This document shows positions 6,558 to 29,401 of a stretch of 39,978 bases of DNA, in pieces. Under the pieces are notes generated by a model. It was not told the DNA's origin and did no database searches. It saw nothing but the letters and a program-made list of their open reading frames with translations. Numbering within the stretch: the first letter of the stretch is position 1; each line of letters starts with the position of its first letter. The translations under genes and the position numbers were made by a program. This stretch comes from a virus: positions 1 through 39,978 of IMG/VR virus record IMGVR_UViG_3300015206_000006. The stretch is one strand, 5' to 3'.

Positions 6558-6964
6558 CGGAGCGCGACGATATCGAAATGGCCTTCATGCGGATCCTCTC
6601 GACGAACGGCCTGATCTTAAGCGGCGCGATATCGCCAGAGGATCGGCGCGAGCGGATCCGCGTCACGATCATGCAGCGGGGCATCAAGGATAAGCCGTTC
6701 GATGCGCAGCTGACCTACGGGCAGGCCTTCGAGCGCTGCTACCAGCGAGCGGTTGAGATGCGCCGCGTGCAGCGCGCTGATCCAGCGCCGCAGCCGATGG
6801 TGGTCAAGCGAGGTCCCGGCGATGATGACGGTGACGAGGAAGACGACGAGGGCTTAGAAGCGATCGAACACTGCGGCGTAGTGAGTCATGCAGTCCCCGT
6901 GCCCGCAGTAATACCCCGTCCAGTGGGCGAGCTCGTACTTCCGAGCAGACGCAAGGCGTTTTAG
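6554..6964 (+). CDS. Hypothetical protein at the end of the late transcript
   Basis: A 136-residue protein of unknown function that overlaps the Rz-like stop (ATGA). It has a helical, charged N-terminal part (RRERIRVTIMQRGIKDKP), a long acidic run (DDDGDEEDDEGLE) around residue 95, and a C-terminal tail of about 37 residues. That tail lies opposite the end of the leftward methyltransferase-like gene, giving a 111-bp convergent coding overlap. The last part may therefore be read-through sequence rather than a folded domain. Confidence 0.55.
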   Translation: MTERDDIEMAFMRILSTNGLILSGAISPEDRRERIRVTIMQRGIKDKPFDAQLTYGQAFERCYQRAVEMRRVQRADPAPQPMVVKRGPGDDDGDEEDDEGLEAIEHCGVVSHAVPVPAVIPRPVGELVLPSRRKAF

Positions 6965-10349: not shown

Positions 10350-10585
10350 ACTGCACCCGCTGAGTGCAGTTTGCGGAGGATTGCCGAGGCCTGGTTATAC
10401 GTACAGCCGCAGCGCTTGCACATGAGCATGGCGGCGCCGAAGGCTTGCATTTCTTTGAAGCGGGATTGGTAGGGCGCCGAGGCCGTGGGAGCGCCTGGGA
10501 TGGCCTTGGAGCGTTTGGGCGCTTTGGGCGGTAGAAGTGGGCGCCCTGGGGGGCGTTTGCGGCGCCTGGCTGGCTTGGGGCTCAT
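10346..10585 (-). CDS. Small basic protein with CxxCGC motif
   Basis: A 79-residue protein directly behind the integrase gene (ATGA overlap). The first 35 residues are Lys/Arg/Pro-rich. The second half has MLMCKRCGCTYNQASAILRK, a CxxCxC motif inside a probable helix-turn-helix-like segment. Possibly a small DNA-binding accessory protein; because it is coupled to the integrase it is worth considering as a recombination directionality factor, but nothing in its sequence proves that. Confidence 0.5.
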   Translation of the reverse strand: MSPKPARRRKRPPGRPLLPPKAPKRSKAIPGAPTASAPYQSRFKEMQAFGAAMLMCKRCGCTYNQASAILRKLHSAGAV

Positions 10586-12219
10586 TTTTGCCCCTTGCGG
10601 ATCAGGGGTATATGAGCCGATTGCAGGCCCCCGCTACTCAGTGAAATACGACCCACTGAGCCGCCTACAGCGTGTAGGACCGCGTTGGCCTGGAAATGGA
10701 CCTCCGCCACCAGGTGGAAGCCGCGCGCGTCCGGTAGCAACCGGATGCGCTGCCCGTAGATTGAGGCGAGCGCGGCGCGCGCCACGTCTGCGTCTTCTCC
10801 ACGCAGATCGTCCCGCAACTTTTTGGCGTGCTCGCGGTACTCAGCCTCCAGCCCCCATGGACCCGACACCAGGGGCGCCCGTGCAGCACTGTGCGACTGT
10901 CGCACAATCGCCAACCGCTCAGCCTCCAGTTTTTGGTATATCGGCTCGGCCATGTCCGCGTCGAGGGCCTGGCTGGCCACAAGCGCCCGAACTTTCAGTA
11001 TTTTTGAGTCTATGGCCGAGACGTCCGCGACCGGCTCGGGCGGCCGCTCTTTCAGCGCCCTACGGATCTTGATCACGGCCGCGTCTACGGCCGCATCCGA
11101 CAGCAGGTCATTGAGCGCCGGTTCCATCAGCCGCTGCTCGCAGACATCGCGCGGCACCCGGATCGAATTGCTGCAGGCGTTCGGGCCGCCCTGGTGGAAC
11201 GTCGAGCAGGTGTAGTACCGGGGCAGGCCGCTGCCATACCCTCTGCTATTCTTGCCGCCGCCCGAAATGATAAACCGGGCATCGCACCGACCGCAGACCA
11301 GCAATCCCGACAGCGGGTACTTGGTGCGCCCGCCGCCCTTCTTGCCGTAGCTCTGTTTGCGCCGGGTCATCAGCGCGTCGACCGTATCCCAGGTCTTGCG
11401 ATCAACGAGCGCGAGCTCGGGCCGCTCGTCGATGATCCATTCGGATTCCGGGCGCTCGCGGCGCGTGCGCTTGCCGGTCTCGGGATCTTTGACCCACTGC
11501 GAGCGATTCCAGACCACGCGGCCCATGTACGTTTCGTTCTGCAGCATGTTGTTCAGCGCCGGCACGATCCAGCGGCCGTCGCCGCGGTTGGTGACGCGAC
11601 CCTTCCAGTCGGCGCCGGGCGAGCGGACCTGGCGGCCGTTCAAATCACTCGCGATCGCCAACATGGTCTCGCCGGCGGCGATGCGCTCGAAAATTTCTTT
11701 GACGATCTTCGCCTGCTCGGGGATCACGACTTGCTTCGATGTGTAGCCGTAGGCCTTGGAGCCCGTTGGCTTGCCGGACTTGGCGAGCGTATCGAGCGCC
11801 AGGTGCACGCGCTCGCCGATGGCCAGGCGGTATTCGTCCGACATGATGCCGGACAGGCCTGCCTGCATGCGCGAGTGTCGCTGATCCGAGTCGAAGTGAT
11901 CGAGCACGCCGACCACGCGGATTTTGCGAAACCGCATGCGCTCGAGGAATTTTGGAAGGTCGGCGCTATTGCGGGACAGGCGCGTCAGGTCCGCGATCAG
12001 GATGACGTCGAGCTCCCCCGCGAAGGCAGCCTTCTGCAGCGCGTTGACGCCCGGGCGATTGCCGAAGCTCGCGCCGGAGATCGCGAGGTCGGAAAATTCG
12101 TGGAGCACCTGCAGGCCGTTCTGCTTCGCGTAGTCCGCGCAGCACCGCCGCTGATCGTCGATCGAGGCCTCCGTCTGTTTGTCGGTTGAAAATCGTGCGT
12201 AGGTCGCTGCTCGTTTCAT
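10582..12219 (-). CDS. int: Large serine integrase
   Basis: A 545-residue large serine recombinase that would integrate and excise the phage DNA. Starting at the ATG at 12219 it reads MKRAATYARFSTDKQTEASI, with catalytic Ser11 and Arg9. The resolvase core follows (LDVILIADLTRLSRNSADL; then the SDEYRLAIGERV linker helix). Next come the recombinase domain (GSKAYGYTSKQVVIPEQAKI), a zinc ribbon (LLVCGRCDARF...YYTCSTFHQGG PNACSN) and the helical C-terminal region. The frame stays open upstream to 12492, but conservation begins at 12219, where an AGGGA ribosome site lies about eight bases upstream and the start overlaps the preceding stop by ATGA. attP is probably close, but I could not identify it. 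Confidence 0.92.
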   Translation of the reverse strand: MKRAATYARFSTDKQTEASIDDQRRCCADYAKQNGLQVLHEFSDLAISGASFGNRPGVNALQKAAFAGELDVILIADLTRLSRNSADLPKFLERMRFRKIRVVGVLDHFDSDQRHSRMQAGLSGIMSDEYRLAIGERVHLALDTLAKSGKPTGSKAYGYTSKQVVIPEQAKIVKEIFERIAAGETMLAIASDLNGRQVRSPGADWKGRVTNRGDGRWIVPALNNMLQNETYMGRVVWNRSQWVKDPETGKRTRRERPESEWIIDERPELALVDRKTWDTVDALMTRRKQSYGKKGGGRTKYPLSGLLVCGRCDARFIISGGGKNSRGYGSGLPRYYTCSTFHQGGPNACSNSIRVPRDVCEQRLMEPALNDLLSDAAVDAAVIKIRRALKERPPEPVADVSAIDSKILKVRALVASQALDADMAEPIYQKLEAERLAIVRQSHSAARAPLVSGPWGLEAEYREHAKKLRDDLRGEDADVARAALASIYGQRIRLLPDARGFHLVAEVHFQANAVLHAVGGSVGRISLSSGGLQSAHIPLIRKGQK

Positions 12220-12492
12220 TTTTTCATCCCTGTTTTTAAAATTATGATGCCTGACTCGATTGGATGGCCGACGGTCAGCTCGATTCGTTCCCGCACCAAA
12301 GTTTCGTTCTCGTGGTTCACCTTGCGCAATGCCGATTGCAGAAAGCGGATGGCGACCGCTTGGATGCCGACGCCGAGTGCGAATACGGCGCCGGTTCCAA
12401 TTGCGTAAGACTCCGCAGCTAACGATGCCAGCCGTGGCACAAAAGAGTTGGCTCGAAAAAAGAATAAGCTCGATGCGCTCGCCTTTGCTCAC
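12216..12492 (-). pseudogene. Small membrane protein, reading frame split at an A6 run
   Basis: Two frames make one plausible protein here. Frame one starts with an ATG at 12492 that overlaps the upstream stop by ATGA and reads MSKGERIELILF. Frame two, from about 12458 to the TGA at 12216, reads FRANSFVPRLASLAAESY followed by a hydrophobic segment (AIGTGAVFALGVGIQAVAI) and a charged helix. A one-base change in the A6 run at 12456-12461 (T6 on the coding strand) would join them into an approximately 91-residue protein. If intact as written, only a GTG at 12440 could start frame two. Its stop overlaps the integrase start by ATGA. Function unknown. Confidence 0.5.
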
Positions 12493-12749
12493 GGCGCTGC
12501 ATCCAGCAGTGGCCCGCGGTTGTGTTCGCGCTCATGGCATTTCGGGCAGAATCTCTCGTCTGCGCCCGCGAATTTGAGGCCGCAAGTCGGGCAGGTATGG
12601 ATGCTGACAGGCATGCAAGTTTCTTTCACTGATTTGGGTGGCACGGGGCCGATGCCGAACAGCTGCCAATCTTTGATTCCCTGTCCATTGAAAAAAGCGA
12701 GGATGCGCCGAGCGGCACTGGCGATCTCTTCGGGTATTTCGGGCGTCAT
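12489..12749 (-). CDS. Small zinc-ribbon protein
   Basis: An 86-residue protein with a C-terminal zinc ribbon (HTCPTCGLKFAGADERFCPK CHEREH: two CxxC knuckles 13 residues apart). The N-terminal half is helical (EEIASAARRILAFF). Likely binds nucleic acid or protein; no known target. It sits between the ribbon-helix-helix-like gene and the split membrane protein, with ATGA overlaps at both ends. Confidence 0.6.
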   Translation of the reverse strand: MTPEIPEEIASAARRILAFFNGQGIKDWQLFGIGPVPPKSVKETCMPVSIHTCPTCGLKFAGADERFCPKCHEREHNRGPLLDAAP

Positions 12750-12955
12750 GCTTTTGCTACGCGCTTGGTCAGTCGCGCCCTGGGCGGCTCGCTGCCCGTG
12801 GTTTGCTGAATGATCCCGCGCGAGAGTGACCCGCCGCCGACCTTGCGCAGATAGTCCGCGACGTGCTGCGGCAGCCGGATCATGAACCGCGCGCCAGGCG
12901 TGCCGGTAAGTGAGGGACGGCCACGGCCGCGCTTGATGGGTTTGCTGCCTGTCAC
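12746..12955 (-). CDS. Ribbon-helix-helix-like DNA-binding protein
   Basis: A 69-residue basic protein. After a KRGRGRPSLTG tail comes GARFMIRLPQHVADYLRKVG GG, the strand-helix pattern of Arc/MetJ-type repressors. It is the first gene of the leftward integrase operon and starts at a GTG (12955) six bases after GGAG. The element at 12987-13015 lies just upstream, so autoregulation of its own promoter is likely (inference). No CI-like repressor is seen elsewhere, making this a candidate lysogeny regulator. Confidence 0.6.
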   Translation of the reverse strand: MTGSKPIKRGRGRPSLTGTPGARFMIRLPQHVADYLRKVGGGSLSRGIIQQTTGSEPPRARLTKRVAKA

Positions 12956-12986
12956 TGCCTGCTCCGATTGTGAAACCGTGAGGCTT

Positions 12987-13015
12987 ATTTTAGCACCTTA
13001 AATGCTGCGCCGCAA
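12987..13015 (-). promoter_or_regulatory. Leftward promoter/operator, shared element copy A
   Basis: On the minus strand TTGCGG (13010-13015) and TAAAAT (12987-12992) are separated by exactly 17 bases. The spacer carries CATTTAAGGTGC, so the -10 is preceded by TGC as in extended -10 promoters. The GTG of the ribbon-helix-helix-like gene is 31 bases downstream. The same element occurs at 16351, 20784 and 20835, each time correctly oriented upstream of a first gene. Confidence 0.65.
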
Positions 13016-13026
13016 TTGCGCTGCTT

Positions 13027-13260
13027 TTAATCAGATTGCGCACTCTTGCGCAGAAGTGCGGCTTCGCGCGCTCGGATCGTCGCAACCGTTTTTTTGACCA
13101 CGAGATCGATCATGCTATCGAGCGCTTCGGGCGAGAAGTGCGGGCGGAATTCTGGCGCGATGCGTGCCGCGTACCATACGCATTTCGGATCCTCGCAGCC
13201 ATTGCATGTGAGGCCTGAGCAGCGAGCCGCCGGCGGCCGGATAGGTGTGACTTTGCTCAC
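13027..13260 (-). CDS. Small Cys-containing hypothetical protein
   Basis: A 77-residue protein starting at a GTG (13260) that overlaps the upstream stop by GTGA. It has a cysteine cluster (RCSGLTCNGCEDPKCVWYAA) likely to bind zinc and a C-terminal helical part (LDSMIDLVVKKTVATIRARE). It is the last gene of leftward region 2; just beyond its stop is promoter copy A. Function unknown. Confidence 0.55.
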   Translation of the reverse strand: MSKVTPIRPPAARCSGLTCNGCEDPKCVWYAARIAPEFRPHFSPEALDSMIDLVVKKTVATIRAREAALLRKSAQSD

Positions 13261-13517
13261 AGGATCAGCCGCAGCGGAATCGCCTGCACGCCGACAGATG
13301 GCGGCACGCACTCCTGCAGCTCGGCCGCGAACTTCTTGGCGATATCTTCGGGCAACGGTTCTACGATCGACGGGCAGATCCGCGTGATGTAGCAATGCAC
13401 CGGCGTTCCGTCTTCGGTCTGACCTTCCCAAATTCGCGCGGGCACCGCGACGCCGCGGCCCTGGATCTGGACCTCGAGCTGGACAATTTTGGTGGTCGAT
13501 TCGACGTGGATCTTCAT
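13257..13517 (-). CDS. Hypothetical early protein
   Basis: An 86-residue protein beginning MKIHVESTTKIVQLEVQIQG, with a beta-rich N-terminal half and the segment GTPVHCYITRICPSIVEPLP. It looks like a compact globular phage protein of unknown function. It overlaps the next gene by GTGA and the previous one by ATGA. Confidence 0.6.
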   Translation of the reverse strand: MKIHVESTTKIVQLEVQIQGRGVAVPARIWEGQTEDGTPVHCYITRICPSIVEPLPEDIAKKFAAELQECVPPSVGVQAIPLRLIL

Positions 13518-13756
13518 GCTTGTTTTTCTCCGCCGACCAGACTGTACGGGATATCCGGCTGCGCCGCGTCGCGGTTCGCGCGCAGCGCGGCCGAGCGCAG
13601 CGTGCGCAGGTGAATCAGGGACTCATGTTTTAAGGATTTCGTGATCGTCGGCGGCAGCGGCGCGTCGTCGAATTCCATGCAGCTGATCGCCGTGTCGAGC
13701 GCGAGCGCCATGCGCAGGCCTTCTTCCCGTGAGATCCTCACGAGCTCAACGCCCAT
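13514..13756 (-). CDS. Hypothetical early protein
   Basis: An 80-residue, mostly helical protein (SREEGLRMALALDTAISCME; later HLRTLRSAALRANRD). It is coupled to the next gene by ATGA. No motif recognised. Confidence 0.5.
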   Translation of the reverse strand: MGVELVRISREEGLRMALALDTAISCMEFDDAPLPPTITKSLKHESLIHLRTLRSAALRANRDAAQPDIPYSLVGGEKQA

Positions 13757-13760
13757 GGCT

Positions 13761-14462
13761 TCACGGCCCCACCGGCAGGTATTTCAGAAACCTGGCGAGT
13801 TGCGCGTGCAGCGCATCGATGCACTCTGTGCCGCGGTGCTCAGCGATGTCTTGATCGCGCGCGGGTTTCTCGAGCATCGGCAAACCCGTCTCGACCGAGT
13901 GCATGATTTCCGCGCGCGTCGCGCGGCGCCCTTCGGCGTAGAACTCGACGCCACGAAAGCCCTCATCGCATGTCGGCTCGCCGAGGCGGATCAGCTGGCC
14001 GGCGTTGCCGGCGTAAGCTTTGAACACGTTGAACTCGCGCGTGGTCCAGAGGCACGTCACACCGGGATTGCGGTCAATCGGACAGCCCGCAGCATCCTTG
14101 ACGGTTTCGGGAAGCTTTGCGGTCCGATACTTCGCCTGCGGCCGGGTCATGAACGGGCAGGCGATCGCGGCGAAGGTCGCGCACTCGTGGTGATTGCCGG
14201 GCTCCGATGTCGTGCGGGTGATGCCGCACATCGGGCCGATGACGAACGTGCGGCGCACGCCAACCGGCTCGCCGCACAGCCAGCAGTTGCCGAAGCGCAC
14301 AGCCAGGCCCCACTTGCGCCGATCCATGACGCGAAAGTCCGGCACGCCGTTGATCCACTCGACGAACCAGGGCACCGGATATCCGCGCGCCTCAATGGGC
14401 AGCAGCTTCATGCGCGGCGGAATCTCGGGCAGGTCTTTGCGTGGCTCGCGCAGCTGCATCAT
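13761..14462 (-). CDS. Hypothetical protein with CxxC motif
   Basis: A 233-residue protein of a type found in early operons of proteobacterial phages but without known function. It opens MMQLREPRKDLPEIPPRMKL, has a central RFGNCWLCGEPVGVRRTFVI with a CxxC knuckle followed by GPMCGITR, then a stretch with several Cys/His (NHHECATFAAIACPFM). The cysteine pattern suggests zinc binding. The C-terminal third is helical. It overlaps the upstream stop by ATGA. Confidence 0.65.
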   Translation of the reverse strand: MMQLREPRKDLPEIPPRMKLLPIEARGYPVPWFVEWINGVPDFRVMDRRKWGLAVRFGNCWLCGEPVGVRRTFVIGPMCGITRTTSEPGNHHECATFAAIACPFMTRPQAKYRTAKLPETVKDAAGCPIDRNPGVTCLWTTREFNVFKAYAGNAGQLIRLGEPTCDEGFRGVEFYAEGRRATRAEIMHSVETGLPMLEKPARDQDIAEHRGTECIDALHAQLARFLKYLPVGP

Positions 14463-14665
14463 GACCGGCTGTCCAAAGTTGGGTCGATGCGCGTCTCAAC
14501 ACCGGCCGCGTCGATGGTGAACACGACTTCGACGGTTGGGTCGCCTGCCTTCCACTCCGTGGCCACGCGACGCACGCTGAGCTCGCGGCCGTCGACGATC
14601 ACCATGCGAGCCTGGCCGCGCGAGTTCATAACGATTTGGACTTGAGGCAGCATCATGTCGGCCAT
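14459..14665 (-). CDS. Small hypothetical protein
   Basis: A 68-residue beta-rich protein (LPQVQIVMNSRGQARMVIVD; TVEVVFTIDAAG). It overlaps both neighbours: 13 bases into the upstream gene's end and ATGA with the downstream one. Unknown function. Confidence 0.5.
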   Translation of the reverse strand: MADMMLPQVQIVMNSRGQARMVIVDGRELSVRRVATEWKAGDPTVEVVFTIDAAGVETRIDPTLDSRS

Positions 14666-14967
14666 CCTTTCCCGTCTGCGATGCTTTGTCGAATGGTTGC
14701 GGTCTTGTCGGCCCTTTCCACCGGCGTCACGCGGTCGAGCAGGTAGCAGCCGGCGACGCCTCGAAGCCAGATTACCGCGGAGTGTCCCTCGAGCACTTCC
14801 GCTTTCGAGCGCGTGATCGTGCGCATGACCTGGCGATCATCCATCAGCAGATCGACCGAGCAGCCGACCGGATGTTGCGCGTTGAAGTCATCGCACTTTG
14901 CCTGTTGCAGCTTTCGGTTCTGGCCGAAATTTGCGCTCATGCCGCGACGCCAACTGGCGGTCATGAC
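14653..14967 (-). CDS. Hypothetical early protein
   Basis: A 104-residue protein. The ATG at 14967 is preferred because GAGGAAG lies just upstream; an internal ATG at 14940 (MSANFGQNRK) is possible. The body reads FNAQHPVGCSVDLLMDDRQV then SAVIWLRGVAGCYLLDRVTPV, a short beta-barrel-like pattern common in phage hypothetical proteins. Function unknown. Confidence 0.55.
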   Translation of the reverse strand, partial: VMTASWRRGMSANFGQNRKLQQAKCDDFNAQHPVGCSVDLLMDDRQVMRTITRSKAEVLEGHSAVIWLRGVAGCYLLDRVTPVERADKTATIRQSIADGKGWPT

Positions 14968-14971
14968 TTCC

Positions 14972-15619
14972 TCACAGGAACCGCGGCATGTTCGCGCCGG
15001 ATCGGATTGAACTGCACCGTCTTGCCATCGGTGACGAGGAACCCGCTCGCGCCTTCCCGGCGCGGACCGCGCGAACGTAGTAGTGATCCGCCGGGTAGTA
15101 CCGATCGACATAGCCATCGTGCAGGTTGACGAGCCACGCGCAGCCCGAGGGACTCTCTTCATCGACCGTGCTGGTCCACTCCCATGACGCGCCGCCGACG
15201 TCGAATTCTTCGTACAGCGCGGCCCCGAACTTGGAGTAGTCAACAATCGAGACACGCTCGTTGACAGTTGGCGCGCGCCAGTCGTCTTTGCCGAAGAGGC
15301 GGTGATTCGCGCAGGCCTTCAGCGCGTCCTTCCAAGGCACCGCGCCGCACTCCAACGGCTTGCGCGTCCAGGTCAGATTCGTCTCGGCGTCATAGACCGC
15401 AACCCAATCGGCCGCGTCGGTGACATTGCCGTGCAAATCAATCTTGGTGAATCGAGTGGTTTCGGCTGGGGCCAACGATTTGCTTGGCGTCCCCTCTGGC
15501 TTCAGAAACTTGTAGTAGCTCTCGGCCGCTGTGATGACGCTTGCGGCCTCTGTTTCCCTGCGCTCACTGCCAAGCGCCAACTCAAGGGCCTTGATTCGCA
15601 ATACCTGATCGTCCTGCAT
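14972..15619 (-). CDS. DUF1566 (Lcl C-terminal-like) domain protein
   Basis: A 215-residue protein whose residues about 75-200 match the DUF1566 pattern: YDAETNLTWTRKP, PWKDALKACANHRLF, KDDWRAPTVNERVSIVDYS, then a Trp-rich ASWEWTSTVDEESPSGCAWL and a terminal YYVRAVRAG. DUF1566 has a C-type-lectin-like fold and is usually on exported or surface proteins, so finding it in an early leftward operon without a signal peptide is odd. The ATG at 15619 has GGAG six bases upstream. Confidence 0.7.
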   Translation of the reverse strand: MQDDQVLRIKALELALGSERRETEAASVITAAESYYKFLKPEGTPSKSLAPAETTRFTKIDLHGNVTDAADWVAVYDAETNLTWTRKPLECGAVPWKDALKACANHRLFGKDDWRAPTVNERVSIVDYSKFGAALYEEFDVGGASWEWTSTVDEESPSGCAWLVNLHDGYVDRYYPADHYYVRAVRAGKARAGSSSPMARRCSSIRSGANMPRFL

Positions 15620-15639
15620 TTCAATCTCCAAAATTCAAA

Positions 15640-15830
15640 ATTACTGACTGAATTCGAGCTGCAGTACGAATTCCTCACCGGCGCCAGCCAGACCAGCTCC
15701 GACATTCGCGCGCTCCTTGGCCTTTTCATGGCTATGAAAGGGCAGGCCGACACCTTCCTTTTCAACGATCCGGAGTTCAACACCGTCTCATCGATGCCCT
15801 TCGCCTCCCCCGATGGCGTCACCGATCTCG
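15640..15830 (+). pseudogene. Possible relic of a DUF2460-type tail gene
   Basis: In the gap between two leftward genes, the plus strand reads FELQYEFLTGASQTSSDIRA, then LLGLFMAMKGQADTFLFNDP and FASPDGVTD. This matches the central block of a DUF2460-like tail protein family as I know it (F-x-L-x-YEFL, then L-x-GFF-x-x-x-G-x-x-x-x-F-L-F-x-D-P, then G-DGVT). It has no start codon or ribosome site and breaks off on both sides. It is likely a fragment left by recombination. The intact DUF2460 gene of this phage is at 37947-38594 and is only distantly similar. Confidence 0.45.
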
Positions 15831-16006
15831 CGTTGAATTTCTGCCCACCGTTTTGGGTCGTGTTTTTTGACCACTTCGCACATCGCTTGGTGGCGCTCTT
15901 CGAGGTCGGGTTTGAGCATGGCCTGCTGCATGTCGTAGACCCGCCGATTCAACTCGAAAAACCGTTTGATCCAGGCGAGCATTTTGTGGCAGCGCAAGGT
16001 GCGCAT
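15788..16006 (-). CDS. Small helical hypothetical protein
   Basis: A 72-residue helical protein (KRFFELNRRVYDMQQAMLKP; HDPKRWAEIQREIGDAIGGG). The ATG at 16006 has GAGGAT just upstream; a second ATG at 15982 is possible. It is the first gene of leftward region 2, divergent from the replication gene across the region 16007-16416. Its 3' end overlaps the plus-strand tail-gene relic. Confidence 0.5.
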   Translation of the reverse strand: MRTLRCHKMLAWIKRFFELNRRVYDMQQAMLKPDLEERHQAMCEVVKKHDPKRWAEIQREIGDAIGGGEGHR

Positions 16007-16105
16007 AATCCTCAGTATGTTAAACGGGAATCGACCGATCGGCGCGCCGCTTCGGCGATTTCAAAAAAATCAACTCAACATAAAATTCCGCTCTTTCGAG
16101 CCGAC

Positions 16106-16121
16106 TGTCCGGTATCGGACA
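16106..16121. promoter_or_regulatory. Perfect 6-bp dyad, candidate operator
   Basis: TGTCCG and CGGACA are separated by GTAT, forming a 16-base perfect inverted repeat in a non-coding region. It has the size of a dimeric repressor site. Only one copy was noticed, so the assignment is tentative. Confidence 0.35.
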
Positions 16122-16179
16122 CAGCCCCTCGGCGAGCTCGAACACTTACACGGGCTGCACCCCGCTTTCAACAACTAAA

Positions 16180-16225
16180 TTTCGCGAAAGCTTTCGCGAA
16201 AAATTTCGCGAATCGTTTCGCGAAA
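16180..16225. repeat. Four TTTCGCGAAA palindromes on a 12-bp period
   Basis: TTTCGCGAAA starts at 16180, 16192 and 16216; the copy at 16204 ends in T instead of A. All four starts are exactly 12 bases apart, with two-base linkers (GC, AA, CG). Each unit is a perfect 10-bp palindrome, apart from the 16204 copy. Such a strict array indicates cooperative protein binding: iterons of an origin, a partition-type site or an operator. Confidence 0.75.
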
Positions 16226-16337
16226 ACTGTTAACTAAGGAACGCGCGGCCGCGGGCGCGCGCGCGTCAGATCCGGATCTAAGATTTAAGATTTATGATTG
16301 AAATCCAACGCGCGGGCGCGGGCGCGCGGTTCATCTA

Positions 16338-16366
16338 TTGCCAGAACGATTATAGGTGCTGTAAAG
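16338..16366 (+). promoter_or_regulatory. Rightward promoter/operator, shared element copy D
   Basis: TTGCCA (16338-16343) and TGTAAA (16360-16365) are 16 bases apart, and the -10 is preceded by ATTATAGGTGC. The GGTGC plus AT-rich flanks match copies A, B and C. The proposed GTG start of the replication gene lies about 50 bases downstream. Confidence 0.5.
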
Positions 16367-16416
16367 TCTGCGGCCGCGTCAGAAAAATAAGATCGCGGGC
16401 AAGGATCGCCGCCGAA

Positions 16417-16803
16417 GTGAGTCAGAAACGCCAGCTGCCGCCGGATCTGCCCCGATGGGAGCAATTCAAGAATCTGTCGCATGACGCGCGGTTGCTGTAT
16501 CTGCTGCTGTACACGATCGCGGATGATGAAGGTCGGATCGTTGAGAATGTCGGCGATTTCGCCTACGAACTGTTCCCAGGCGAATCCGGTTTTGGTTTGA
16601 AGATCGAAGCATTATTGAGGGAGATCGAGCGCGAGAATTTAATCGGCCGCTATGATGTCAGGCGCGCTCACTACATCGTCATCACTGACTGGGATATCCA
16701 AAAAGTAGATCACCCGAAGCCATCGAGACTGCCCGAGCCGCCGGCGACGCGGGCGCTGTTTGTCGATGAGCTCGCCGTCGCTCGCGCTAAGCGCGACCAC
16801 TAG
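16417..16803 (+). CDS. Replication-initiator-like winged-helix protein
   Basis: A 128-residue protein with the features of the N-terminal domain of phage replication proteins: PRWEQFKNLSHDARLLYLLL YTIADDEGR, then GDFAYELFP, IEALLREIERENLIGRYD and HYIVITDWDIQKVDHPKPSR. Such domains bind the origin; here the usual C-terminal helicase-loader part is absent. The GTG at 16417 is chosen because promoter copy D lies upstream of it and the family normally begins close to this point; the ATG at 16294 would include the promoter in the gene. AAGGA lies 11 bases upstream. DnaA boxes follow its stop, which supports a role at an origin. Confidence 0.65.
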   Translation: MSQKRQLPPDLPRWEQFKNLSHDARLLYLLLYTIADDEGRIVENVGDFAYELFPGESGFGLKIEALLREIERENLIGRYDVRRAHYIVITDWDIQKVDHPKPSRLPEPPATRALFVDELAVARAKRDH

Positions 16804-16807
16804 GGAT

Positions 16808-16839
16808 TGTGGATAAATTTGTGGAAACCCTGTGCAGAA
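16808..16839 (-). other. Cluster of DnaA-box-like sites, candidate origin
   Basis: Read on the minus strand, 16808-16816 is TTATCCACA, a perfect DnaA box. GTTTCCACA (16820-16828) and TTCTGCACA (16831-16839) are weaker matches at 12- and 11-base steps in the same orientation. They lie in the short gap just behind the replication-initiator-like gene. Confidence 0.6.
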
Positions 16840-16853
16840 CATGAGGGTAGTTT

Positions 16854-17183
16854 GTGCATGACCTGATTTTCGCCGCCAGCCACGTGTTGGCCATGACGAT
16901 GATCATCGGCAACGGCCGGGGCAGTCGGCTGATCGACGCGCGCGCCGCGCAGCGGCTGCAGGATGGCGCGCAGAATGTCGGTGAGGTTTTGCTGTGGACC
17001 GTTTACGGATCGCACGAGAAGTTCGTCGCGCGGCCGTGCATGACAACGCACGGCGTCTCGCCGATGCCGGTGCACCTGGAGGCCGCGACGCTCGAGCAGC
17101 TGCGAGCGCAGCTGCCGAAAGGCCTGACTAGTTGCGATCGCCTGGCCGACGATGATCCGGTGGTCGTCGAGACCTGGCAGTGA
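16854..17183 (+). CDS. Hypothetical protein, paralog of the gene at 17478-17762
   Basis: A 109-residue protein of unknown function. The GTG at 16854 has GAGGGT five bases upstream; a later ATG at 16893 is possible. The second half (VGEVLLWTVYGSHEKFVARP, then SPMPVHLEAATLEQLRAQLP and DDDPVVVETW) matches, block by block, the leftward gene 17478-17762 (LGQLLIWTVY, FVARP, GPIPMHL, LRTMLPGGL, EDEPQIMEVW). The two are paralogs on opposite strands. It belongs to the short rightward replication unit and may act with the initiator. Confidence 0.6.
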   Translation: MHDLIFAASHVLAMTMIIGNGRGSRLIDARAAQRLQDGAQNVGEVLLWTVYGSHEKFVARPCMTTHGVSPMPVHLEAATLEQLRAQLPKGLTSCDRLADDDPVVVETWQ

Positions 17184-17199
17184 ATATATTTAAATATAC

Positions 17200-17481
17200 T
17201 CAGGTCGGCGGCCGCGGCCGCTTCGGTGTCGGTGGATTGTAGTCAGTCTCCCAACCGTTGCGCTGCACGTAGATCGCAGCCTTGATCCAGTCGCCTTCGA
17301 GCCGATCAACGCAGTCAAGCGCGGTGCCCCACCATTTGATGAGCTCCGGATCATCGAGCACGAGCGCCACCGCGCATTTCTCGCCGGTCGAGAGAACGCC
17401 GAAGCTCGGCGGATCCAGCTTGACCATGCGAATTTTTTCGCGGATTTGTTTGACCGCGGGCATGTAGGTCGGCGCGCTCAT
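17200..17481 (-). CDS. Hypothetical early protein
   Basis: A 93-residue protein beginning MSAPTYMPAVKQIREKIRMV, with PSFGVLSTGEKCAVALVLDD and DCVDRLEGDWIKAAIYVQRN. It overlaps the upstream stop by ATGA and is the last gene of leftward region 3, ending 17 bases from the convergent gene at 17183. No family recognised. Confidence 0.6.
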   Translation of the reverse strand: MSAPTYMPAVKQIREKIRMVKLDPPSFGVLSTGEKCAVALVLDDPELIKWWGTALDCVDRLEGDWIKAAIYVQRNGWETDYNPPTPKRPRPPT

Positions 17482-17762
17482 ACCCACACTTCCATAATCT
17501 GCGGCTCGTCCTCTGGCTTGCGCTCGAGACGCACCAGGCCGCCGGGCAGCATGGTCCGCAGCGTGTTGATGTCGCGCGCCATCAGATGCATCGGGATCGG
17601 CCCTGACGTTTTCGGCCGAATCATGGTCGGCCGTGCGACGAACCAGTCGGGGAAATCCTTCGGGCTGAAATACACGGTCCAGATCAGCAGCTGACCCAAT
17701 GACACCGCGGAGCAGTGGATCTGGTGCGCGTAGAGCGCGTCGATTTCGATACTTGACTTCAT
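17478..17762 (-). CDS. Hypothetical protein, paralog of the gene at 16854-17183
   Basis: A 94-residue protein with LGQLLIWTVYFSPKDFPDWF VARP, GPIPMHLMARDINTLRTMLP and EDEPQIMEVWV. These blocks align with the C-terminal two thirds of the rightward gene 16854-17183, so the two arose by duplication. ATGA overlaps join it to both neighbours. Function unknown. Confidence 0.6.
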   Translation of the reverse strand: MKSSIEIDALYAHQIHCSAVSLGQLLIWTVYFSPKDFPDWFVARPTMIRPKTSGPIPMHLMARDINTLRTMLPGGLVRLERKPEDEPQIMEVWV

Positions 17763-18625
17763 GCGTCACTCCCTGTGAATTTCGGATATTCCTTCCACTC
17801 GCGCCCATCGAGCAGCGAGCCGCCCTTGCCGTTCGGGTCGTGCTTCTCGATCCACTGGCTGATCGTGGTGCCCTTCGGCGTTTCCCAGGCCAGCGGATTA
17901 TTCGCGTTCGTGCCCCACTGCTTGAAGAACAGCGGCACTTTCTGCGCGACGCATTGATCGCGGACCTCGCGCGCCCACGTCGCAAGCATCGGTCGCGCGC
18001 CAGGTCCTGACTCACCGCCCAGGATCACCCAGTGAATGCCGGTCAGGTCGATCGGGCCGACGGCATCGATCAACGGCTCGATCGACAGGAACCGGATTGT
18101 CGCCGGCACGTCTCGCAGCGTAACAATACGGTGCACGCAGTCCCATCGCTCCACGGTGGCGCCGATCCAGACATTATCGGGGAACGCTTTGAGGTTGCTC
18201 AAGAAAGCCGGCGGCCGCTTGAGGAACGGCAAGATATTTTCCGGCCGTTTGGTCAGCACCTGGTATTGGTGTCGCGTGGCGCGCATGACCTGCAGGGCCT
18301 CGATGCGCCAGTAGTCGTCGGCCGCTTCGTGAAAGAAGTCCGACATCGAGTTAACGAAAATCAGCGACGGCTTTTTGATCTTGAACGGCTTGCGCATCTG
18401 CGCCTCGCTCGATCGGTTGATCACGCCGGTCCAGACCGGCTTGCCGTTCGCGAGCTTCGCCACGCCGCGATAGCTCTCCATGCCGAATTCCTGCAGGCGC
18501 ATCGCAGCGCGCATCGCATAGCAGTTGGTGCACCCGGCCGTGTGAATGGTGCAGCCCACAAATGGATTCCAGGTATGCTCTGTCCACTCGATCCCGGTGG
18601 ATCGGTTCGATTCCTTCGATGTCAT
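17759..18625 (-). CDS. Phage Gp37/Gp68 family protein (DUF5131)
   Basis: A 288-residue protein of the DUF5131 family, first noted in mycobacteriophages and widespread in phages. Near the N-terminus it has IEWTEHTWNPFVGCTIHTAG CTNCYA with Cys25, Cys32 and Cys35 (CX6CX2C), resembling the cluster-binding loop of radical-SAM proteins. Later blocks (FVNSMSDFFHE, QYQVLTKRPENI, WIGATVE, RFLSIEPLI, WVILGGESGPGARPM, PLFFKQWG) are typical. The biochemical role is not established. A GGGA site lies about nine bases before the ATG. It follows the sliding-clamp-like gene after a hairpin-bearing 91-base gap. Confidence 0.9.
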   Translation of the reverse strand: MTSKESNRSTGIEWTEHTWNPFVGCTIHTAGCTNCYAMRAAMRLQEFGMESYRGVAKLANGKPVWTGVINRSSEAQMRKPFKIKKPSLIFVNSMSDFFHEAADDYWRIEALQVMRATRHQYQVLTKRPENILPFLKRPPAFLSNLKAFPDNVWIGATVERWDCVHRIVTLRDVPATIRFLSIEPLIDAVGPIDLTGIHWVILGGESGPGARPMLATWAREVRDQCVAQKVPLFFKQWGTNANNPLAWETPKGTTISQWIEKHDPNGKGGSLLDGREWKEYPKFTGSDA

Positions 18626-18663
18626 GATGTATATTCCCGTTCGTTCGTTTCATAGCTTAGAAG

Positions 18664-18700
18664 CCGCGCCCGGTAGATTCCCACCAGGCGCGGTTTTTTT
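18664..18700 (+). terminator. Rho-independent terminator reading rightward
   Basis: CCGCGCC (18664-18670) and GGCGCGG (18687-18693) form a 7-bp GC stem with a 16-base loop, followed by T7 (18694-18700) on the plus strand. On the minus strand the hairpin is not followed by a U tract. It would therefore stop rightward transcripts, most likely those from the replication unit (16417-17183) that run antisense into the leftward genes. Confidence 0.7.
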
Positions 18701-18716
18701 ATCACCCAGCCAATAT

Positions 18717-19802
18717 TTAAGCTGCTTTCGGCGCCGCCAGCAATTTCCCCATCGCCGTGACGACATCCGCGATCCGCTGGTCGCGCAGGGCTATCCCGGC
18801 CGCAAGGGATTTCTTTTCCGACTCGCTCTTCGATTCTGCCATCTGCTTTTTCTGCCGGGTCTGCGTCGCCTTGAGTGCGGCCAGCGTGCCGCCCAGGCCC
18901 TTGCCGATCAGGGCCATGGTCTGCGCTGGCAGCTGCTCTGATCCGGAGCTCACCAGCGGCATGATGATGAACAACGCGCCAGGCTCGCCGAAGAAACTCA
19001 CCACGACCGGCGCTTTTGGATCGTTGCCGGCAAACGGCGTCAAGCCTTTCGCGTCGAACACCTTGCCGACGGCGGCCGCCTGCTTCAGGAATTCGCCGTT
19101 ATAGCTGGTGCTCGATAGCGGCTGTCGCTCGCCGCCGGCGAGCACCTGGCCCGCAGCCTCGATGGTTTTCTGGTACTCGGGAAACGGCGCGTCGATTCTG
19201 CGCAATCGAAACGTGGCCTGTTCCTCCGCATCGCGAATGATCGCGTAGCCGTGGCCACGCGCCCAACCGACCTGGCACGTGGTCGAGTCCTTGCTGCCCT
19301 CGAGTTTAGAGAACACACCGAGCGCCATCGCCAGGCCGTCGCGCGGCAGGATCAGACCGCAGTCAAGCCAGGTCGGCAGCTGCTCTTTCGTCGGCCATGA
19401 GTGCAGCAGCAGGGTGTGACCATTGGTCGCGACGCTGCGCAGGCTGCCATCGCCGATCGAGTGCAGGTACACGCCGAGCAACCCGGCGCGCGAATCCTTT
19501 TTCGGCGTGACCAGCAGGCAGGCCTGCAGGACGTCGAGGCGCACCGTCAACCAGGTGATGTCCTTCGGCGATTCCACCGAGGGCGGCTTGACCGGCGCGG
19601 GCAAGGCCTTCGGGATCGCGAGCTCGAGCATCGGCGGCTTGGTCGCGTTGAAGCGTGCGACCTGGGCAGCAGCTGCGGCAGCGTTCGCGGCGCTCGCCGC
19701 CTGCATCGCCTTGCCGTTCAAGGGCGGTTTGATCGGCGTGACTTTCGCCACGGGTTTTAGGGACGCGGGCTTGCGCGCGCGTCCTGGGAGTTTCGTTGTC
19801 AT
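18717..19802 (-). CDS. Sliding-clamp (DNA polymerase III beta)-like protein
   Basis: A 361-residue protein. After an Ala/Lys/Pro-rich N-terminal 75 residues, the sequence follows the beta-clamp pattern: WLTVRLDVLQACLLVTPKKD (about 84-103), LHSIGDGSLRSVATNGHTLL (the VATDGH motif of DnaN), LILPRDGLAMALGVFSK, then ATFRLRRIDAPFPEYQKTIE (the FPDY motif). It is shorter than a cellular clamp (about 366 residues with three domains) once the N- and C-terminal tails are discounted, so perhaps only one or two clamp domains remain. The C-terminal tail is Lys/Glu-rich and helical. It probably acts in phage DNA replication, but clamp function is inferred. A duplicated leader lies upstream. Confidence 0.6.
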   Translation of the reverse strand: MTTKLPGRARKPASLKPVAKVTPIKPPLNGKAMQAASAANAAAAAAQVARFNATKPPMLELAIPKALPAPVKPPSVESPKDITWLTVRLDVLQACLLVTPKKDSRAGLLGVYLHSIGDGSLRSVATNGHTLLLHSWPTKEQLPTWLDCGLILPRDGLAMALGVFSKLEGSKDSTTCQVGWARGHGYAIIRDAEEQATFRLRRIDAPFPEYQKTIEAAGQVLAGGERQPLSSTSYNGEFLKQAAAVGKVFDAKGLTPFAGNDPKAPVVVSFFGEPGALFIIMPLVSSGSEQLPAQTMALIGKGLGGTLAALKATQTRQKKQMAESKSESEKKSLAAGIALRDQRIADVVTAMGKLLAAPKAA

Positions 19803-19823
19803 AGGTCACATCATTTTTTTCGA

Positions 19824-19868
19824 TCGATGCGAAGTCCGCACCCCGCTGCACCCTCGATCGAGGGCGCA
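19824..19868 (-). repeat. Duplicated structured leader, copy 1
   Basis: This 45-base stretch matches 20067-20111 at about 38 of 45 positions without gaps. Bases 19824-19843 (TCGATGCGAAGTCCGCACCC, plus strand) are identical in both. Bases 19845-19870 form a strong hairpin centred on CCCTCGATCGAGGG. It lies 5' of the clamp-like gene. Confidence 0.65.
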
Positions 19869-19881
19869 GCAGGCTGAGGGC

Positions 19882-20052
19882 TCAAGCCTTCTTGTAGACG
19901 TTCAGCGCGACGCTGACGTCGCCCACCTTGATCGCGCCGCGCGTGCTCGCGACGATGATCGTCTTGCCGGATCCGCTCGGCCCGAATTCCTTGCCGAGGT
20001 CTATCGTGATCGTGAGCATTTTGCCCACGACTTTTGTCGTGACGTTGTCCAT
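19882..20052 (-). CDS. Small conserved phage protein
   Basis: A 56-residue protein reading MDNVTTKVVGKMLTITIDLG KEFGPSGSGKTII, ending with SVALNVYKKA. Proteins of this size and pattern (TKV-GK-LTITIDL-KEFGPS-SGKTIIIAST) recur in proteobacterial phages with no known function. GSGKT resembles a P-loop but the protein is far too small for an NTPase. AAGGGA lies six bases before the ATG. It sits between the two copies of the duplicated leader. Confidence 0.7.
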   Translation of the reverse strand: MDNVTTKVVGKMLTITIDLGKEFGPSGSGKTIIVASTRGAIKVGDVSVALNVYKKA

Positions 20053-20066
20053 GTCGATTCCCTTAC

Positions 20067-20111
20067 TCGATGCGAAGTCCGCACCCGGAGGCACCCTCTT
20101 GCGAAGGCGCA
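20067..20111 (-). repeat. Duplicated structured leader, copy 2
   Basis: Second copy of the 45-base element found at 19824-19868, here 5' of the 56-residue gene. The shared 20-mer lies at 20067-20086. The adjoining hairpin (GCACCCTC...GAAGGCGC on the plus strand) is imperfect compared with copy 1. Confidence 0.65.
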
Positions 20112-20125
20112 ACCGGGTCCAGACT

Positions 20126-20434
20126 TCAACCGAAGTCGATCGATGCATGCGGATCTTCGCTGCGCGTGCGCTCGCGCTCCTCGGGCCACAGATAGGCGCC
20201 CAACGTCTGATCATCGACACCCGATCGCCCTGTCCCAGGCAACGCGCCGTAGCCGGGAAACGCGTGGTCGGCGGCGCGCTCGATCATCGCGTGGACGACT
20301 TCACGCAGTGAGTTGTACCGCGTGACCTCCAGGCTCAGCGTCGCGGGCGTTGCTGCCTGCAGCGTGAGACATGCGAACTCTTTGAACTGGTTCTGCCAGG
20401 CCTGTACGAATTGCTGACGTGTTCTCGCTTCCAT
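20126..20434 (-). CDS. Hypothetical early protein
   Basis: A 102-residue protein starting MEARTRQQFVQAWQNQFKEF, with a helical N-terminal half, SLREVVHAMIERAADHAFPG, and a charged C-terminus (YLWPEERERTRSEDP). AGGGAGAA lies about six bases before the ATG at 20434. No family recognised. Confidence 0.6.
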   Translation of the reverse strand: MEARTRQQFVQAWQNQFKEFACLTLQAATPATLSLEVTRYNSLREVVHAMIERAADHAFPGYGALPGTGRSGVDDQTLGAYLWPEERERTRSEDPHASIDFG

Positions 20435-20506
20435 CGAAATTCTCCCTTTCCGGTTTGTTGCCACTCTCCAGAGCACCGCGCGATCGCGGCGCTCCAGGCA
20501 GGGGCA

Positions 20507-20731
20507 TCAGGCCGCTTTCATGTTCGCGGTGATCGTCCGGATCGCCTCGCGCGCTTCCGACTTGACCGAGGCCGACTTGCTGGCCGCGATGACCTGGGTC
20601 TGGCGGGTGATGTGCGCCTTGTACGCGGCCATCGAGCGGGTTTTCGCCTGCGCTGCCGTCGGCGCCTTCGCGGACTTCGAGACGACTGCGGACTTCGAGA
20701 CGGTCTTCGATGCTTTGGCTGATTTCTTCAT
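20507..20731 (-). CDS. Small Lys/Ala/Ser-rich basic protein
   Basis: A 74-residue very basic protein with a histone-tail-like N-terminus (MKKSAKASKTVSKSAVVSKS AKAP) and an alanine-rich helical rest. It is the first gene of leftward region 3, with AGGAG nine bases before the ATG and promoter copy B 52 bases upstream. DNA coating or condensation is possible, but only composition supports this. Confidence 0.55.
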   Translation of the reverse strand: MKKSAKASKTVSKSAVVSKSAKAPTAAQAKTRSMAAYKAHITRQTQVIAASKSASVKSEAREAIRTITANMKAA

Positions 20732-20783
20732 GGTCGTAAACTCCTGGGTGATTTGAGAGGCGTTGTGCTTGTTCCGAGATTGA

Positions 20784-20801
20784 ATAATAGCACCTTAAAT
20801 G
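20784..20801 (-). promoter_or_regulatory. Leftward promoter/operator, shared element copy B
   Basis: On the minus strand this reads CATTTAAGGTGCTATTAT: the first 14 bases are identical to copy A and are followed by TATTAT, a good -10 with the extended TGC. No strong -35 is seen, as often with extended -10 promoters. It points at the gene starting at 20731. Confidence 0.65.
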
Positions 20802-20834
20802 AGAAAAAGTGTGCTCAAATCAACTATTTAGCTG

Positions 20835-20851
20835 AATAAAGGTGCTTTAAA
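20835..20851 (+). promoter_or_regulatory. Rightward promoter/operator, shared element copy C
   Basis: AATAAAGGTGCTTTAAA matches the shared element, with TTTAAA in the -10 position and AAAG-GTG-CTTT as a dyad. It faces copy B across 33 bases, so the two form a divergent control region. A TTGACT at 20859 with TAGAAT at 20887 has a 22-base spacer and is not a good alternative. Confidence 0.55.
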
Positions 20852-20923
20852 CAGGGTATTGACTTGGGAGGGCGCGGGAACGCCCCTAGAATGCCGATTT
20901 GACGGGACGCCATTTTGAAGGGG

Positions 20924-21199
20924 ATGACGTTGATACGAGAAAAACACCAGGCCGTGCAGGCCTGGCAGGTGCGCGAGGCTGTAAAGCAATTTCCAGGATC
21001 GAACGTGCGACGGCTCGCAGCCCTATCCATGATTCCGAAGGCGGTTTTCTTCCGAAGGCTGGTCGAGCTCGAGCGCTTAGGGCTAGTCGCGAAGGATGCT
21101 CACGGCGGATATCGTATGATCCCGACGCAGCCAGACGATTTTCCGGAGCTGGAGCAGTTGGAAACTCGACAATGCAATGGCACTTCGTCAATGCGATGA
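20924..21199 (+). CDS. Winged-helix DNA-binding protein, first gene of the rightward region
   Basis: A 91-residue protein with a winged-helix pattern: VREAVKQFPGSNVRRLAALS, then MIPKAVFFRRLVELERLGLV and a wing AKDAHGGYRMI. MarR/ArsR-like helix order makes DNA binding likely. AAGGGG abuts the ATG at 20924, so a TTG at 20930 (six bases from it) may be the real start. It lies behind promoter copy C and leads the late transcript, so it may control late gene expression (inference). Its end overlaps the next gene by 28 bases. Confidence 0.6.
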   Translation: MTLIREKHQAVQAWQVREAVKQFPGSNVRRLAALSMIPKAVFFRRLVELERLGLVAKDAHGGYRMIPTQPDDFPELEQLETRQCNGTSSMR

Positions 21200-21381
21200 C
21201 CTACGAGACCGCAACGCATCGCGTGCAGCGCGTGCATTCGCATCACGATTCCTACTGGCTCGCCGAGCGCAAAGCAACCGAGCACGAGCATGTCGAAAAG
21301 CTGAACGGTCATTTCCCCGATCAGCAGTCGGCCGAAGCTGCTTGCGAGCGCGATCAATACTCGCAGGTCACAGGCCGATGA
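21172..21381 (+). CDS. Small His-rich hypothetical protein
   Basis: A 69-residue protein (MQWHFVNAMTYETATHRVQR then HSHHDSYWLAERKATEHEHV) rich in histidine and aromatic residues. It starts inside the preceding gene and overlaps the next by ATGA. Unknown function. Confidence 0.5.
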   Translation: MQWHFVNAMTYETATHRVQRVHSHHDSYWLAERKATEHEHVEKLNGHFPDQQSAEAACERDQYSQVTGR

Positions 21382-28910: not shown

Positions 28911-29401
28911 CGGTCAACACGAGCTTCCGGCGCGCGCTGTGGGCGGACGTACTCTATGCGTGTGACGAGACATGGTGGATGGCTTACTTCCCAGAGGTCG
29001 CGCGCAACTTCCACGGTGAGAAGTGGACCGTGAACGCGCGCGCCCGCGATCGGTTCGATTTGTTCTGGATCATGGGTCTCGACAATGGCGGTCTGTCGAA
29101 AGATCCGACCTGCATCCATCAGGGAAAAAATTCCGGCTACCAGGCGATGAGCCTGGCGCATCTGTTCGGCGTCGCGCGCATTCTGCTGTTAGGGTTTGAC
29201 TTCTCGCAAGACGGCACGAAAACGCACTGGCACGGCGATCATCCGCGAGGTTTGGGCAACGGCGGCACGTATCCTGATTGGGTCCGCGCCATGCAGCCGC
29301 TCGCGGTGGATTTGAAGGCCGCCGGCGTCGAGGTCATCAACTGCAGCCGGCGCACCGCGATCGACTGCTTCCCACGCCGCGCGATCGAGGAGTGTTTGTG
29401 A
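28819..29401 (+). pseudogene. GPSL-motif (DUF115/glycosyltransferase-associated) protein, start frame broken
   Basis: From the ATG at 28979 to 29401 the frame is clear (FDLFWIMGLDNGGLSKDPTC, IHQGKNSGYQAMSLAHLFGV, ARILLLGFDFSQDG). The same frame continues upstream with obviously conserved sequence: TVCIIASGPSLTEADCAHVE, then IAVNTSFRRALWADVLYACD. Yet no ATG, GTG or TTG exists in frame between the stop at 28688 and 28979. The ATG at 28819 would supply MARR if one base of the AAA at 28830-28832 were absent. So the gene is frameshifted, misassembled, or starts unusually. The pattern (Gly-Pro-Ser-Leu loop, VN-x-x, WADVLYACD) recalls DUF115/MptE-like Rossmann proteins and sugar-handling enzymes; a role in glycan modification is inferred from its neighbours. 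Confidence 0.6.

Follow-up and report, generated by a model that had tools for sequence, protein, structure and literature searches.

The locus and the repeated box

The DNA analysed here, called the window throughout, is a whole IMG/VR virus record (IMGVR_UViG_3300015206_000006; 39,978 bases, GC 62%) from a soil bacterial virus whose plus strand carries terminase, portal, protease, capsid, tape measure and tail genes. A short box with the core AGGTGCT recurs in its promoter regions, ahead of an integrase operon and between a leftward and a rightward unit, and is kept there in related phages as a candidate operator for a phage-encoded regulator. The sites and promoters concerned are the following.

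12984..13004, minus strand: site A1, CATTTAAGGTGCTAAAATAAG, overlapping the extended -10 (TGC-TAAAAT) of the operon for a ribbon-helix-helix (RHH)-like protein, a zinc-ribbon protein and a serine integrase
13013..13033, plus strand: site A2, CAATTGCGCTGCTTTTAATCA, an inverted second copy 27 bp from A1 (centre to centre), adjoining the -35 (TTGCGG) of the A promoter
20781..20801, minus strand: site B, CATTTAAGGTGCTATTATTCA, overlapping the extended -10 of the leftward early operon
20804..20821, plus strand: element M, AAAAAGTGTGCTCAAATC, an invariant 18-mer that lies between the two sites B and D and spans the -35 zone of the B promoter
20834..20854, plus strand: site D, GAATAAAGGTGCTTTAAACAG, 51 bp from B (centre to centre) in the opposite orientation
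20864..20892, plus strand: TTGGGA-17-TAGAAT, probably the main promoter of the rightward unit, lying downstream of D (9/12 promoter matches)
16348..16368, plus strand: site C, GATTATAGGTGCTGTAAAGTC, upstream of a replication-initiation gene, a doubtful member
16338..16367, plus strand: sigma70-type promoter TTGCCA-18-TAAAGT found by promoter scan, overlying site C
12992-12998 (minus, A), 20789-20795 (minus, B), 16354-16360 (plus, C) and 20840-20846 (plus, D): the AGGTGCT core

The genes that head or fill the adjoining units are these.

12746..12955, minus strand: small basic RHH-like protein that heads the integrase operon; candidate regulator
12489..12749, minus strand: zinc-ribbon-like small protein (CPTCGLKF...CPKC motif in its sequence), between the RHH-like gene and the integrase
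10582..12492, minus strand: large serine integrase (phrog_95 integrase, E 5.9e-92; Pfam Resolvase, Recombinase and Zn_ribbon_recom)
20507..20731, minus strand: small protein rich in lysine and alanine, encoded by the first gene of the leftward unit
20930..21199, plus strand: small winged-helix-like protein, alternative regulator, first gene of the rightward unit

Recurrence of the box above chance

An earlier, sequence-only reading of this DNA had reported four boxes, A to D, and each lies where it was placed. In their own orientation they read CATTTAAGGTGCTAAAATA (A), CATTTAAGGTGCTATTATT (B), GATTATAGGTGCTGTAAAG (C) and GAATAAAGGTGCTTTAAAC (D), and A and B do have 14 identical bases in common (CATTTAAGGTGCTA). 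The search of the full window with the four-site matrix, proposed in that reading, returns these four at the top with 26.8-28.8 bits and a wide gap before the next match at 14.2. When each site is dropped from the matrix in turn, 0-0.025 equally good matches are expected per dinucleotide-shuffled window. One motif is present at several promoter regions of one phage, above chance.

Counting the bare 7-mer gives no support by itself: AGGTGCT occurs 12 times in the window (8 copies intragenic), which is not remarkable, and its intergenic count is not unusual either; a repeated 14-mer arises in 60/300 shuffles of the intergenic set. Across all viral contigs the exact 14-mer is found at more than 100 loci, within the chance range, and only the loci in relatives are informative. 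The rare features are the core with A/T-rich flanks, its position and its conservation. The core had also been described as a dyad, and it is a real but imperfect one. With the T of GGTGC as centre, the fraction of matching half-site pairs is 0.57, compared with 0.31 +/- 0.05 after shuffling of the halves; no other odd centre goes above 0.36. Such symmetry is what a dimer would lead one to expect.

Conservation in related phages

Relatives were retrieved from IMG/VR with protein baits, giving a comparison set of five distinct genomes: the window, G002/L003 and G003/L004 (about 68-91% identical to the window, varying by segment), the 10.7-kb fragment L028 (about 68-81% identical), and G004/L140 (about 69-80% identical over longer matches). 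DNA divergence among the five reaches about 30%. A further fragment, G001/L002, is 99.5-100% identical to the window and adds no independent evidence. Additional DNA baits (the M 18-mer and the A block described below) recovered the known relatives, chance matches and nothing else, and more distant terminase relatives are without the early module. The region 12400-21300 has no nucleotide match among 50,697 isolate phages, no homologue of the RHH-like protein was found in isolate phages or in plasmids, and RHH and terminase baits detected no prophage copy in 84,980 species genomes. Judged by these searches, the phage group is uncultivated and without a close isolate in the collections covered.

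A1, A2, B and D are conserved in place in the five genomes; C is not. At A1, all five genomes retain CATTWAAGSTGCTAAAATA in an unchanged position, within a block (ATTAAAAGCA..C..AATTGCG.CGCAGCATT.AAG.TGCTAAAATA) that the five phages have in common and beyond which the flanking sequence diverges on both sides. The inverted copy A2 was absent from the earlier list. It ranks fifth with the four-site matrix (13013-13031, plus strand), lies inside the same block, and its TGCTTTTAAT is invariant in 5/5 genomes. Held out of a matrix built from A, B and D, A2 scores 15.9-19.7 bits at the same place in each genome; its support comes from fixed place and conservation, not from score. No plus-strand gene lies downstream of A2, the next genes being on the minus strand. 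Because it faces no gene, the element looks like a protein-binding site and not only a -10 box, and A2 is best read as a putative binding site.

B and D form an inverted pair, each in place in all five genomes. The core of B is AGGTGCT in three, AGATGCT in L028 and TGCTGCT in G004; D contains AGGTGCTT in four and AGCTGCCT in G004. Element M between them is identical at 18/18 positions in the five genomes, more conserved than the boxes themselves, and GTGCTCAAATC inside it is possibly a weak third site.

Site C was rejected as a full member. Its core is AGGTGCT only in the window and the nearly identical G001 (G000/G001), GGGTGCT in G002 and G003, and absent in L028 and G004; with the matrix from the conserved sites it falls to 12.2 bits, within background. 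An ordinary promoter accounts for it: at the same position L028 has TTGCGA-18-TAGAGT, with the spacing retained and the box missing, so that the promoter and not the box appears to be kept. The description of four copies heading four units is accordingly amended to three conserved copies and one inverted partner, with C doubtful. Upstream of the replication-initiation gene lie four tandem TTTCGCGAAA-type palindromes with 12-bp spacing (16177-16224), followed by an A/T-rich stretch, GATCTAAGATTTAAGATTTATGATTG, at 16273-16310. Together these are likely a replication origin with iterons. At the iteron place TTCCGGAA-type repeats are found in L028 and a mixture in G004, and the iterons may change together with the initiator.

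A relaxed box pattern, defined after the sites were seen, recovers A1, B and D throughout the five-member group, plus C or A2 in some members and nothing else, the exception being B of L028 with its GATGC core. Control phages were those with a common terminase and no homologue of the RHH-like or winged-helix protein in the DNA scanned. There the pattern has 0 matches in G008, G009 and G010 (144 kb) and in fragments G006 and G007; the A/T-richer control G011 (57% GC) has five scattered matches. A further candidate site at 18714 was discarded, not being conserved in L028 and G004.

A parallel change in one relative

In G004, GGTGC has become GCTGC at all of A1 (CATTAAAGCTGCTAAAATA), B (TCATTTTGCTGCTAATATT) and D (AAATAAAGCTGCCTTTAAT). 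When as many changes as were observed at each site are distributed at random, all three sites come to share one base change in one column with P 0.007-0.008. The predicted DNA-contact strand of the RHH-like protein reads RSMVHLP in G004 and RFMIRLP in the others. In an alignment to Arc, Mnt and CopG, the R27 to H change of G004 falls on Arg13 of Arc, which we take to be a base-contacting residue.

Predicted promoters at the boxes

Judging from gene order, the A, B and D regions would drive the three units. By alignment with the relatives, the gene that D faces probably starts at TTG 20930 and not at ATG 20924. The lysine/alanine-rich gene on the other side is kept beside B in G002 and G003, and L028 has a similar gene there; the zinc-ribbon-like protein of the integrase operon has no match in G002/G003.

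The sequence-only reading had placed a -10 hexamer directly after the TGC of every box. This holds for A, where the conserved block contains TTGCGG, 17 bases and then TGC-TAAAAT, and is plausible for B. It is doubtful for D, and the best -10 at C is TAAAGT, two bases further on. In sequence, an extended -10 (TGn and a TATAAT-like hexamer) is present in A, plausible in B, poor and variable in D (TTTAAA, changed to TTTTAA in L028) and absent at C in two relatives. D probably does not supply the -10 of the unit that it faces. It lies at about -56 relative to the expected start of the downstream promoter, whose TAGAAT (20887-20892) is invariant in 5/5 phages, though an additional weaker start at D may exist.

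A, B and D could in principle be host sigma70 extended -10 promoters, alike by their common role, with no phage protein reading AGG. The TTGCGG-17-TAAAAT of A is what such promoters would have; TGC and the A at +7 never vary between sites and a T comes after TGC in almost every one, in agreement with TGn and a -10; conservation at B extends to the expected transcription start. This explanation nevertheless seems unlikely. All 13 distinct A1/A2/B/D sites have G at -2 and T at -6, two positions outside the extended -10, A2 faces no gene, D stands upstream of a better conserved promoter, and GG became GC jointly at three sites in G004. Since A2 and D are conserved yet are not the -10 of the best promoter, host sigma alone is insufficient. 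Of the options given earlier (an extended -10 family, a repressor site or both), "both" agrees with A and B, whose box overlaps TGn and a -10-like hexamer, and A2, D and the G004 change support a site for a trans-acting protein; C is a doubtful member.

Candidate regulators

With moderate confidence, we favour the reading that the boxes are operators of one phage-encoded regulator, most likely the self-regulated RHH-like protein. Under it, the boxes would be built over or beside phage promoters and be read by a single phage DNA-binding protein. The A1/A2 pair covers a -10 and abuts a -35, so that the RHH-like protein would shut its own promoter and thereby the integrase. The B/D pair, with M between, covers the leftward extended -10, and a bound protein would close the leftward promoter. 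From its position at about -56, D may serve in repression, or possibly activation, of the rightward promoter, this being also a plausible activator position. The sites themselves, the way in which they are conserved and paired, and the joint change in G004 are observed; that a protein binds there, that it is the RHH-like one and which way it acts are inferred.

The RHH-like protein had been named as the natural candidate regulator, and it is still the best one, its operon carrying A1/A2 and its predicted contact strand differing in G004, but its fold is only weakly supported. The protein is 48-96% identical in the relatives. Its profile aligns with Arc/Mnt/CopG in the expected register (P 0.0012, probability 19%; decoy P 0.42), and its best Pfam match is the BrnA antitoxin (E 0.058, in 1/5 members). 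A low-confidence model of the L028 homologue places helices at 29-38 and 42-51, where they would be expected, with a predicted local distance difference test score (pLDDT) of about 70. Structure prediction was set aside as evidence, being too uncertain.

Several observations weigh against this reading. The conserved-site matrix was built from A, B and D only, so that the high ranks of A1, B and D hold by construction, and it reaches 15-21 bits at unrelated places (G003 9007, L028 6864 and the controls G009 and G011, up to 17.4 in controls). The G004 change counts as one evolutionary event only, and its test was chosen after the change had been noticed. At A2 the window has GCTGC and G003 has GGTGC, and at B the L028 sequence is GATGC; that base is therefore not strictly read at every site. 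The RHH-like protein has no Pfam, NCBIfam or PHROG match over the cut-off, and for want of a curated family match it is called RHH-like and not RHH. Its structure models are of low confidence (pLDDT 60 and 67), and a PDB fold search with such a model gave no match with E below 7; four PDB matches with E above 7 were judged to be chance. Lastly, the winged-helix protein has a G004-specific change of its own, RR to QQ.

That change favours the alternative that the boxes are operators of the winged-helix protein (20930), acting on the divergent B/D promoters and on the integrase operon in trans. The gene adjoins B/M/D and is kept there in 5/5 phages, and the protein (67-85% identical in the relatives) has a weak match to an IclR-type helix-turn-helix (E 0.00064, below the Pfam cut-off). 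Against it, L028 and G004 have different boxes but almost identical probable recognition helices in this protein. The predicted DNA-contact part has changed more in the RHH-like protein, which also stands first in the operon of A1/A2. The winged-helix protein is, on this evidence, a rather improbable reader, yet one still to be reckoned with. Very improbable is a host DNA-binding protein whose sites the phage uses as a cue: the invariant M could be a host site, but the boxes go with this phage early module and not with related phages that are without it, and the G004 change fits a phage-encoded reader better, though the host of G004 may differ.

If the RHH-like protein is the reader, a minimal switch can be tentatively sketched, although we consider it doubtful. 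One protein of ~69 residues, encoded ahead of the serine integrase, would read paired inverted boxes at only two control regions and so set integrase, leftward and rightward transcription, no CI-type repressor having been recognised among the genes scanned. Relatives such as G004, in which protein and boxes have changed, would then constitute a separate immunity group.

Neighbouring features

Several other features were observed at or near these units. Over the RHH-like gene and its promoter (12756-13031), the window and G003 are 96% alike, silent positions included, far above the neighbouring DNA; a recent exchange of this regulatory module is possible. In the leftward operon, two 50-nt copies (19824-19873 and 20067-20116; TCGATGCGAAGTCCGCACCC...), 82% alike and partly palindromic, occupy intergenic gaps and may be an RNA element. 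At 18660-18701, between two minus-strand genes, the plus strand has a GC-rich inverted repeat and then seven T. This resembles a terminator oriented against the operon, and the T run is kept in 5/5 phages. The 361-aa early protein at 18717-19802 is weakly similar to DNA polymerase processivity factors and to a RusA-labelled family (E about 1e-8). L028 has an extra box-like match at 6864-6884 (GAATATAGGTGTCATTAATCA, 20.9 bits), in a part without counterpart in the window. Among the structural genes, 28979-29401 encodes a protein matching a PHROG labelled alpha-2,3-sialyltransferase (E 1.2e-29).

Relation to known systems and significance

Arc and Mnt of phage P22 are small RHH repressors whose partly palindromic operators overlap promoters and which also control their own transcription. 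The candidate described here would resemble them in being a small phage RHH-like repressor with promoter-overlapping, partly palindromic sites and control of its own transcription. Unlike them, it heads an integrase operon, its sites are spread over two control regions, and its RHH fold is putative. Extended -10 (TGn) sigma70 promoters are another point of comparison, since both A and B have a TGC with a fair -10 after it; the conserved AG upstream of TG, the positions of A2 and D and the parallel change set the boxes apart from that class.

Phage regulons with repeated operators are known, and by analogy the present arrangement falls within them. In SP-beta, the repeated sequence SPBRE was recognised long before binding of the master repressor MrpR was shown by genome-wide binding and gel shift (PMC10516654). 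The likeness is that one phage carries a short repeat at several of its promoter regions and that the repeat was noticed first in sequence. SPBRE differs in being a 15-bp motif at about ten promoter regions, MrpR is recombinase-like and not a small RHH-like protein, and phage and host are others. In the Cluster A mycobacteriophages L5 and Bxb1, stoperators vary from phage to phage together with the repressors (PMC6550527, PMC9283540). These too are dispersed operators whose sequence varies between related phages; however, they are asymmetric, many also stop elongation, and their repressor is a monomeric two-domain protein, whereas here three to four sites all lie at promoter regions. For this protein, motif and phage group, there is no match in the collections searched.

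If the proposed reading is true, it would provide a testable control circuit for an uncultivated phage group without a close isolate, and integrase expression would be tied to the main operons through one small protein. The window type (GGTGC) and the G004 type (GCTGC) would then constitute a natural pair for following how operator and repressor specificity change jointly.

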